From: Chitinophagaceae bacterium
Lineage (GTDB): Bacteria; Bacteroidota; Bacteroidia; Chitinophagales; Chitinophagaceae
NCBI GenBank assembly: GCA_947456805.1
Contig: CANGTN010000001.1
Span: 124,001-188,000 of the forward strand
Length of the DNA: 64,000 bases
Direction: 5' to 3'
The notes beneath the pieces were generated by a model. That model ran no database searches. It saw only the letters and a program-made list of their open reading frames with translations, and was not told the DNA's origin. Within the stretch, counting starts at the first letter, position 1; every line of letters begins with the position of its first letter. This document shows, piece after piece, positions 31,953-34,184 of the stretch. A program made the translations under genes and the position numbers.

Positions 31953-33500
31953 TTATTTTCGTTTGCTCTGTTGGTATTTGTTGTAAATAATTGTACTCAT
32001 TGGTTGTTGGTTTACTTTGCTTTCAACCCACGAAATCACATCTAGATAAGCAAAAGCCCTGGTTTCAAATCTGTTTTTTTCCAGATGTTTGATTTTATAC
32101 AATAACTGTTCAAATTCGGGTTTTAATTTTTTAGGAGACACATGAAATGAGCGGCGTAAAAACTTAAACATTTCTTCCTCAACAACAGTTAAGTTTTTCA
32201 TTTTAGCCATGAAGCGGTACACCGATTTGATTAAAGGTTCCATGATGTCAAAATTACCCAGTTCATAATGTGCCATCATATGCAGCAAGCGGGCATAGCA
32301 TTGTAAATCTATCCGTAAATCAAGCGGGCCATTAATAATTTTTTGCAGATAATCAATTGATGTTCCATAATTACCATTACCAAAGTGTAAGGTGGCAAAT
32401 TTGTAATTGAAAACCAGTATCCGGTGCACATCTACAAACAACTCATATTCTTTTAGCTTTTTTTCAATTACCGGAATCAGTGCAACGCCCTCTTTAAAAG
32501 TTCCCTGCATCAGGTGCTGGTTAATTTTTGCGCTGTTGATATAAATGGAAGTATGGGTTTTAAAATTATCGTATTGCTGTGCAACTTCTGACTTTTCAAA
32601 AAACTCAAACTCCTTCAGCACTTCTTCAAATTGATGAAAATTGCGGAGGTCAAAATGTGCATTTAATAATGCGTGAACGCCTTTGATATAATGCCCCGTT
32701 TCTACCGAAACCATATTGGGGTGATTTCTGAATAAATCCACCCACTTTTTACTGTAACGATAATACATTAAAAAATCTTGACGGATAAATGCATACCAGC
32801 AATAGCTTTGGTACAAATACAGTTTTTCATAAAAACCGCTGATGGCATTAATATCAACAGGAAGTTGGGTTTTGAAATAGGCTTTAATATCCGTTTCATC
32901 ATGTTCATTTCTTGCATGACCATTTATTAAATACCATCTGTACAACAACAACGCAAGATTAGACAATTTTGTAACCCTGTATATATGGTCGCTCACGACC
33001 ATTGCCTCTTCAGCCAAGAGCTCTGTTTTATCTGTTGTAGTTCTTGTGATATGTAGTGTTTCAATTTTTTTCTCTAAAGAAATCGCCTGTACTAAAAAAT
33101 TAAATTTTTGATTGGCTCTTGCCAGTTCTTTAGCTCTGTCTAATATTCTAAGGGCTTGAATTTTTAATCCCTTGTTGTACAAAAGCCTTGCATTGTCTAA
33201 GTGTTCGCTCAGTTGCAAGTCAATGTTTTCAGTTGTTTTCAGCAAGCGCAAACTTGCAAGCAGTTGTTTGTATAAATGAGATTTTAAATTAGCAAGTTGT
33301 GGCTTTGTAACGAATGGAAGTTTTTTCATCAACAATGCCTCATCATACTCGGGTAGTTTGTCCATTGCATCAAACAGCTGCACAATTTTCAAATCTTCTT
33401 TTGCTGAACTTCTGTTGATGTAAAGTTTAAAATGTCGCTTTTCAGCCTTTTCTAAAGACTGAATCAGTTGAAATAATATGTCGGTAAAGCGGTTGGACAT
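31953..33500 (-). CDS. hypothetical protein, alpha-helical/TPR-like, Bacteroidetes type
   Basis: Long clean ORF, helix-rich, no catalytic motif recognised. Confidence 0.75.
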   Translation of the reverse strand: MSNRFTDILFQLIQSLEKAEKRHFKLYINRSSAKEDLKIVQLFDAMDKLPEYDEALLMKKLPFVTKPQLANLKSHLYKQLLASLRLLKTTENIDLQLSEHLDNARLLYNKGLKIQALRILDRAKELARANQKFNFLVQAISLEKKIETLHITRTTTDKTELLAEEAMVVSDHIYRVTKLSNLALLLYRWYLINGHARNEHDETDIKAYFKTQLPVDINAISGFYEKLYLYQSYCWYAFIRQDFLMYYRYSKKWVDLFRNHPNMVSVETGHYIKGVHALLNAHFDLRNFHQFEEVLKEFEFFEKSEVAQQYDNFKTHTSIYINSAKINQHLMQGTFKEGVALIPVIEKKLKEYELFVDVHRILVFNYKFATLHFGNGNYGTSIDYLQKIINGPLDLRIDLQCYARLLHMMAHYELGNFDIMEPLIKSVYRFMAKMKNLTVVEEEMFKFLRRSFHVSPKKLKPEFEQLLYKIKHLEKNRFETRAFAYLDVISWVESKVNQQPMSTIIYNKYQQSKRK

Positions 33501-33518
33501 AATAACATTTTTTAGCTA

Positions 33519-33799
33519 AAAACCAATAGCATCGTGTATTTCAGAAAAAACAATTCATTTTGGCATGATAAAAATAAGCATAAGTTAATTTGTAGACCGA
33601 CAAAGCCACAGCTACTTTTACTTTGCAATTAAGCCATTAGCGGGCAAGCAACCGTTAGAATTTGTGGCAATCAGCAAAGGATAGAGGCTAAAACGGGATG
33701 CAAAATTAATTGCAAATAACTCAGCGTTATCTTTTTTTCATATGGCAAGCAATCGTTAGAGGCTGTTCCGTTTCTACGGAGGGGCCCTTTTTTGGAAAG
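33519..33799 (+). repeat. intergenic repeat unit R1, paralogous to R2
   Basis: Aligns with 33945-34184 at its 5' block (AACCAATAGC...ACTTTGyAATTAAGCC) and its 3' block (CATATGGCAAGCAATCGTTAGAGGCTGyTCCGTTTCTACGGAGGrGCCC). Confidence 0.85.
33625..33793 (+). ncRNA. candidate small RNA from unit R1 (approximate ends)
   Basis: Promoter-like TTTG(33589)-N20-TACTTTTA(33613-33620); ends in hairpin 33761-33787 plus T6. Confidence 0.5.
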
Positions 33800-33944
33800 T
33801 GCAATATAGGATGATTTGATTTTAAAAAATTTTTTCTTTGTTTTTTATTTTTGAAAATGTTGTTAACAAACCCGGAAACTACAATTAATTATACAATAAT
33901 TACCCGCTTTTTTAACCTTGGAGATGATATCATTTACATAATAT

Positions 33945-34184
33945 AAACCAATAGCAGCAAGGATTTCGGCACCATAAAGTTTTTTTGGGATGATAAAAAC
34001 AAGCAGAAGTTGTTTTGTACTAACACAAAGCCAAAGCTATTTTTACTTTGTAATTAAGCCGAGATAAGTTAAGAGTTGATAAAGCCAGGGAGCACACTAA
34101 TTACCACAACATGGTATTATATTTTTTTTCATATGGCAAGCAATCGTTAGAGGCTGCTCCGTTTCTACGGAGGAGCCCTTTTTT
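33945..34184 (+). repeat. intergenic repeat unit R2, paralogous to R1
   Basis: See R1; 3' block differs from R1 at two positions over ~59 nt. Confidence 0.85.
34050..34184 (+). ncRNA. candidate small RNA from unit R2 (approximate ends)
   Basis: Promoter-like TTTG(34014)-N20-TATTTTTA(34038-34045); ends in GGCTgCTCCG-tttcta-CGGAGgAGCC hairpin plus T6. Confidence 0.5.

Follow-up and report, generated by a model that had tools for sequence, protein, structure and literature searches.

Between a 515-aa gene on the minus strand and a gene for a GNAT acetyltransferase, the plus strand of the window (the whole 64-kb stretch of Chitinophagaceae DNA analyzed here) carries two paralogous units arranged head to tail. 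They raise the question of what such units encode and, if they are RNA genes, which part of the RNA acts. A preliminary description had proposed twin small RNA (sRNA) genes with a conserved promoter and 3' end, in which variable middles would recognize the targets. The twin units and the positions of their promoter elements were correctly described (Table 1), and comparison among genomes supports the reading as sRNA genes. That description was probably right about the genes and probably wrong about their target-recognizing part. We consider it likely that the units are tandem paralogues of a Chitinophagaceae family of trans-acting, base-pairing sRNAs that would repress mRNA leaders through a conserved 3' segment.

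Units 1 and 2 lie at a constant offset of 425 bp. Their 5' repeat (33493-33635 and 33918-34060, offset 425) contains the promoter, as reported, and is longer than had been stated, extending over 143 nt at 75% identity. Since it begins within the start-codon region of the 515-aa gene, unit 2 resembles a tandem copy of unit 1 together with its surroundings. Both predicted promoters share the pattern TTTG-N20-TAnTTTTA, of the Bacteroidota -33/-7 type. The shared 3' repeat, here called the block (33732-33793 and 34123-34184), spans 62 nt at 97% identity and does end in a terminator hairpin and T-run. Its two differences between the units both fall in the terminator stem and keep the pairing (U-G to U-A and U-G to C-G). 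A simple terminator scan of the window missed both terminators, probably because of a G-G mismatch in the stem. The middles, described as unrelated, are indeed unlike each other, but that of unit 1 holds two degenerate copies of the block core, the second weaker than the first; unit 2 has no clear extra core copy in its middle. The CGTTAGA within the block resembles the core of an integron attC site, a candidate identity that we rejected because no conserved inverse core site could be seen by eye.

Table 1. Features of the twin units and the adjoining divergent gene (positions in the window)
Feature	Position	Strand	Basis
Unit 1, conserved upstream element TTTTGGCATGATAAAAATAA (family consensus TTTTGnCATAATAAAATnA)	33558-33577	+	Consensus of 58 intergenic regions
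Unit 1, predicted promoter TTTG-N20-TACTTTTA (Bacteroidota -33/-7 type)	33589-33620 (boxes 33589/33613)	+	Position conserved in 58 homologous regions
Unit 1, predicted transcript of ~170 nt, putative ends	33624-33793	+	Promoter and terminator positions
Unit 1, degenerate extra core-motif copy GGCAAGCAACCGTTAGA	33643-33659	+	Sequence comparison with block core
Unit 1, second, weak core copy AGCAAAGGATAGAGGCT	33673-33689	+	82% to block; position of second copy of family consensus
Unit 1, U-tract and nearly invariant single strand TTTTTTTCATATGGCAAGCAATCGTTAGA, proposed seed region	33732-33760	+	24 invariant columns, 85 sequences
Unit 1, terminator hairpin (stem 33761-33771/33776-33786) and T-run	33761-33793	+	Covariation; fold -17.3 kcal/mol, z = -2.04
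Unit 2, conserved upstream element TTTTGGGATGATAAAAACAA	33983-34002	+	Same 58-region consensus
Unit 2, predicted promoter TTTG-N20-TATTTTTA	34014-34045 (boxes 34014/34038)	+	Same 58-region conservation
Unit 2, predicted transcript of ~135 nt, putative ends	34049-34184	+	Promoter and terminator positions
Unit 2, U-tract and nearly invariant single strand, proposed seed region	34123-34151	+	Block alignment
Unit 2, terminator hairpin (stem 34152-34162/34167-34177) and T-run	34152-34184	+	Covariation; fold -19.5 kcal/mol, z = -2.54
Divergent 515-aa gene, distant relative of BT2802-family ribose-utilization proteins	31953-33500	-	Divergently upstream of 68/121 stand-alone copies

A search allowing at most one mismatch over 23 nt detected the block in 146 of 249 Chitinophagaceae genomes, representing 64 of 95 genera, at 1 to 11 copies per genome; the reversed pattern, searched as a control, gave zero matches in the same 249 genomes. 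The window's own genome holds exactly two copies. When a phylum-wide draw of Bacteroidota was searched with up to three mismatches over 24 nt, the block was present in 11 of 14 Chitinophagaceae genomes and in none of the 382 other genomes sampled. Covariance-model and Rfam searches had been suggested as checks. Our covariance model (R1), built from 29 clean block sequences, also recovered copies in genera missed by the string search, and gave only weak matches in a neighboring family. Rfam 15 had no match at gathering score in the 64-kb window, a permissive scan of the region (E ≤ 10) gave no plausible family, and six homologous loci were likewise without a match, consistent with the earlier statement that no known RNA family fits. 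A search of a literature collection for the literal block sequence found nothing. These data indicate that the block defines a Chitinophagaceae RNA family that is absent from Rfam and present in most genera sampled.

The single strand of the block, CAUAUGGCAAGCAAUCGUUAGAG, barely varies across the family. Among 85 block sequences, 24 columns are invariant, the segment ATATGGCAAGCAATCGTTAGAG is fully so, and the U-tract and C that precede it hardly vary. The terminator stem changes while remaining paired: in the 29 clean sequences, 97.6% of cells are paired (31 to 59% for stems slid along the alignment), and 38 cells are double-changed compared with 13.6 in shuffles, with double changes in 5 of the 10 pairs. 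Judged from these alignments, the pattern is what an invariant single strand beside an ordinary terminator would leave. Because the same block recurs across the family and its stem covaries, the resemblance between the twin blocks is far beyond chance. No fold besides the terminator hairpin is conserved, and the predicted fold of the entire unit 2 is only slightly more stable than those of its shuffles (z = -1.54), so that the term "structured" used for these sRNAs was too strong.

Upstream of the block, alignment of 58 intergenic regions, each reaching from the divergent gene to the block, gave a consensus comprising the element TTTTGnCATAATAAAATnA, a promoter of the form TTTTG...CTACTTTTGT, a first core copy GCAAGCAATCGTTA, a second core copy AATCGTTAGAGGC, an unconserved linker, and then the block. 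The element, conserved in 58 loci approximately 10 to 15 nt ahead of the -33 box, resembles a regulator site and may be one. When up to three mismatches were allowed, 56 of 115 stand-alone RNAs had one or more extra core copies, whereas the reversed motif was counted in 21 of the 115; in the class that lies behind a small lipoprotein gene, 5 of 45 members had an extra core copy. Outside these copies the middle is simply unconserved. We therefore read the conserved segment CAAUCGUUA, not the variable middle, as the putative seed; both conservation and the target evidence presented below point to the 3' single strand.

The genomic settings of the block bear on several other explanations. A homologue of the 515-aa gene adjoins 68 of the 121 stand-alone copies and is always divergent; the first copy mostly lies 170 to 260 nt from the start of this gene, and extra copies follow in tandem. 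The 515-aa protein has no Pfam match and aligns over its full length with NCBIfam model NF058569 (BT2802-family ribose utilization) at 139 bits, the cutoff being 550. BT2802 is presumably RusR. In Bacteroides, the regulator RusR controls the ribose operon (PMC12596196). The intergenic position between two genes would also suit a cis-acting leader or attenuator, either of the downstream GNAT gene (34408) or of the divergent gene. We regard this as highly improbable, given that each unit is closed by its own terminator, that downstream genes vary between genomes while the divergent gene alone is constant, and that tandem copies of such a leader would be redundant. Still less credible is an origin as mobile-element fragments (a MITE or IS end) spread by transposition. 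Multiple copies, tandem arrangement, and occurrence on some viral contigs would fit such an origin, but synteny with one divergent gene is fixed over most of the family, no terminal inverted repeats bracket the units, copy number is low, and promoter, seed, and terminator follow one another in the order of a gene. The phage and plasmid records searched likewise contained no match to the block. An IS or MITE origin had been named as what would overturn the sRNA reading; the missing bracketing repeats and the fixed synteny speak against it.

Other copies lie at the ends of genes. The 3' untranslated region (UTR) of a small lipoprotein gene (MKKLLFVLALGAFAAC...), whose product lies near the PG1828 lipoprotein model, holds 45 of 170 copies, 6 to 86 nt behind the stop codon. 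Five IMG/VR contigs of 65 to 129 kb (our loci L159-L163) carry blocks with their own covarying terminators, and on two of them (L160 and L163) the block follows shortly behind an ORF. These contigs are only putatively viral: the ten proteins neighboring their blocks gave one PHROG match, a lipoprotein. In a further locus (L200, 3014-3074, minus strand), the block stands 5 nt behind an ammonium-transporter-like gene, named by eye, of which it is the likely terminator. Copies behind the lipoprotein and ammonium-transporter genes and on viral contigs are what one would expect if the block were merely a favored terminator or 3'-end stability cassette placed behind various genes and had no regulatory targets. 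This explanation appears improbable to us, since a terminator has no need of an invariant 24-nt single strand when only the stem varies, since degenerate core copies lacking a terminator recur in the middles, and in view of the fadD leader evidence described below. What the neighbors do (the BT2802-like protein and the lipoprotein) is no more than suggestive. Among the lipoprotein-class 3' UTRs (within L017-L152; for example, L019, L060, and L144), 28 of 33 that are at least 40 nt long have (C/U)UUGC, usually GCUUGC, upstream of the block. GCUUGC is the complement of GCAAGC in the block, and the stretch that holds it can form a stem-loop. This stretch could serve to mask the block in cis, or the sRNA could bind it in trans.

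Evidence for a target comes from the leaders of genes for FadD-like acyl-coenzyme A (CoA) synthetases, which we collected from further genomes by protein similarity alone. With the discovery case left out, AACGATTG stands 2 to 10 nt before the ATG in the FadD-like leaders of 19 of 46 block-bearing genomes, compared with 0 of 22 block-free genomes and 3 of 1,403 background leaders; neither the reverse nor the reverse complement of AACGATTG ever occurs in those leaders. Scored against seeds shuffled behind a fixed U-tract, the predicted pairing of fadD leaders with the block had a mean z of -2.46 in block-bearing genomes and +0.19 in block-free genomes (Mann-Whitney P = 9.5 × 10^-8). The flanks of the conserved 8-mer are saturated, with an identity of 0.325 compared with 0.300 expected from composition. 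Because they differ as much as random sequence, the site has been kept by selection and not by recent common descent. Conserved complementary sites in targets, by which base-pairing sRNAs are judged, are thus present here as AACGATTG in the FadD-like leaders. On a protein tree, genomes with both site and block spread over two large clades, and 17 of the 22 block-free genomes cluster together; the five other absences are scattered, none with the site. Since the block-free genomes fall mostly in one clade, the association between block and site amounts to roughly one deep event plus five weak ones, and as an independent test it is weak. The fadD leader of the window's own species is without the site.

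We also searched for start-codon sites more broadly. A first test of leader pairing in two genomes gave mild signals, and its best matches pointed to complements on start codons. Compared with control seeds that kept a 7-U tract and were otherwise shuffled, the seed gave a better mean energy in start regions (z = -3.0 and -3.6). The core alone showed no start-region enrichment in the two genomes (z = -0.3 and -1.6), and leader k-mer counts that left out the AUG revealed no excess of antisense core. General complementarity to leaders is therefore no evidence for a broad set of targets, and the target list may be short. The perfect complement GCTTGCCATATGA was rejected as a target, its exact matches outside blocks being mostly divergent block copies on the other strand. 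For the split motif ACGATTG-gap-CCATATG, in which a gap of 4 is the block itself, a gap of 0 gave 18 sites in 199 family genomes, versus about two to four for each of the gaps 1, 2, 3, 5, and 6. In 14 of these 18, the site coincides precisely with the ATG of a real gene, and this ATG is almost always the first in its reading frame; an sRNA paired to the gapless 14-mer would have four bulged bases. The genes include that of a FadD-like acyl-CoA synthetase twice, in different genera and 62% identical, together with those of an acyl-CoA dehydrogenase, an FAA hydrolase family protein, a 2-oxoacid:ferredoxin oxidoreductase, a xylose-isomerase-like protein, two AraC regulators, two FecR proteins, a TonB-dependent receptor, a radical-SAM protein, and two proteins of unknown function. 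A gene for phosphoenolpyruvate carboxykinase has the site with a one-base gap. As predicted sites, each a single observation, they point to catabolism. Searching the window's own genome with AACGATTGCCATATGA gave 45 matches compared with 22 for the control, and none of the 20 near-matches checked lay on a start codon. The only in-place candidate met within the sampled sequence of this genome is a FabH-like gene (MPRSKIAGIGMYVPKN...; L202, contig C1, 1-20000) with AACGATTG 3 nt before its ATG (AAAAACGATTGATTATG). The target set beyond fadD is a lead rather than a result.

We propose that each unit would be transcribed from its own promoter into a 135- to 170-nt RNA ending in the U-tract, CAUAUGGCAAGCAAUCGUUAGAG, and the terminator. 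The functional core would be the single strand, above all CAAUCGUU(A), of which many members have one or two further degenerate copies. CAAUCGUU(A) would pair with (U)AACGAUUG a few nucleotides upstream of the start codon in target mRNAs, including that of the FadD-like acyl-CoA synthetase, and such pairing would block ribosome entry or initiation. Where the half-site CCAUAUG overlaps the AUG, UCAUAUGG of the sRNA could join the duplex with CAAG bulged. Extra core copies would raise the valency, one RNA taking several mRNAs or binding again, and copies at mRNA 3' ends (behind the small lipoprotein gene and possibly phage genes) would probably yield 3'-UTR-derived sRNAs with the same seed. Hfq was found in none of 21 relatives' genomes, while RRM proteins are encoded in 18 of the 21 and two RRM genes in the window's own genome. 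With Hfq absent, an RRM protein would be the likely partner, and one resembling RbpB is plausible.

The same RRM proteins and missing Hfq could instead mean that the conserved segment is mainly an RNA-binding-protein site (for example, for an RRM protein), that RNAs with two or three copies act as CsrB-like sponges, and that leader pairing is secondary. Sponges of the CsrB/RsmZ type carry repeated GGA motifs in hairpin loops for CsrA. The family shares with them a short motif repeated within one RNA, and differs in that its motif is longer, single stranded, and matched by complements at start codons. An invariance of 24 nt, which exceeds what most seeds need, the several motif copies per RNA, and the presence of the segment at mRNA 3' ends would also agree with protein binding. 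We nevertheless think a sponge unlikely: it leaves unexplained the exact complement 2 to 10 nt before fadD start codons with saturated flanks, and many stand-alone members have only one clear copy. On the preferred reading as base-pairing sRNAs, one may go further and envisage a family-wide regulon, in which a multi-seed sRNA, made in part from tandem genes adjoining a carbon-utilization regulator relative and in part from the 3' UTR of a small lipoprotein gene, would restrain fatty-acid and other catabolic genes without Hfq, and viruses would carry the module to act on the regulon of their host. We offer this extension tentatively, as a possibility.

OmrA and OmrB are a known case of neighboring, duplicated sRNA genes that are alike at their ends and differ in their middles; these RNAs are enterobacterial, Hfq dependent, and equipped with 5' seeds, and no sequence relation to the units of the window is expected. 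A closer parallel is the FopS family of Bacteroides, with GibS, whose multicopy paralogues are bound by RbpB and carry a single-stranded seed beside an intrinsic terminator (PMC11697453, PMC7366714). Most FopS members are intergenic, with one 3'-UTR-derived member and one phage copy, and the seed pairs around the start codons of catabolic mRNAs in a host that lacks Hfq and has RRM proteins (PMC11697453, PMC7366714). The Chitinophagaceae block likewise consists of a conserved single-stranded putative seed followed by an intrinsic terminator, is multicopy, in part apparently 3'-UTR derived, and sometimes found on viral contigs, and belongs to an Hfq-free host with RRM proteins. The candidate counterpart of catabolic start-region pairing is here the comparative signal in fadD leaders plus the 14 predicted single-genome sites. 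The GibS consensus begins GUGUUUUUCAUAGUAUUAGAU, and GibS and the block have UUUUUCAUA in common, a stretch that is itself complementary to start codons followed by A-rich codons (AUGAAAAA). The GibS and FopS Rfam models had no gathering-score match in the window or in the six homologous loci, and a GibS match obtained at E ≤ 10 was dismissed as chance (opposite strand; 22 bits, with a cutoff of 115). In FopS/GibS the seed occupies the 5' end of 65- to 70-nt RNAs, whereas here it would lie at the 3' end of 135- to 170-nt RNAs, before the terminator and approximately 110 nt (unit 1) or 75 nt (unit 2) from the predicted transcript start. The core also differs (CAAUCGUUAG), as do the degenerate upstream copies in many members and the bacterial family. 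The block family would thus work like FopS/GibS by analogy, with homology not implied. Rfp18 of Flavobacterium, which pairs by its third stem-loop, is a conserved trans-acting sRNA of another Bacteroidota family (PMC9723704); it differs, by its description, in being a single, strongly folded RNA.

In Bacteroidota other than Bacteroides, post-transcriptional control has hardly been charted. The family described here occupies a constant place in the genome and has a defined seed, and comparative evidence supports at least one target (fadD); its function is therefore directly testable in cultured genera such as Niastella, Niabella, or Segetibacter; the sequence to be targeted by a probe for the family RNAs is GGCAAGCAATCGTTAGAGG. 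The likeness to FopS suggests that this plan arose more than once in Bacteroidota. Divergent block copies of the form TTTTCATATGGCAAGCAATCG, with the different tail AAGAyGGCCyGTTGTTT, were also observed in three genera (loci L281, L284, and L296 in genomes G056, G061, and G003).
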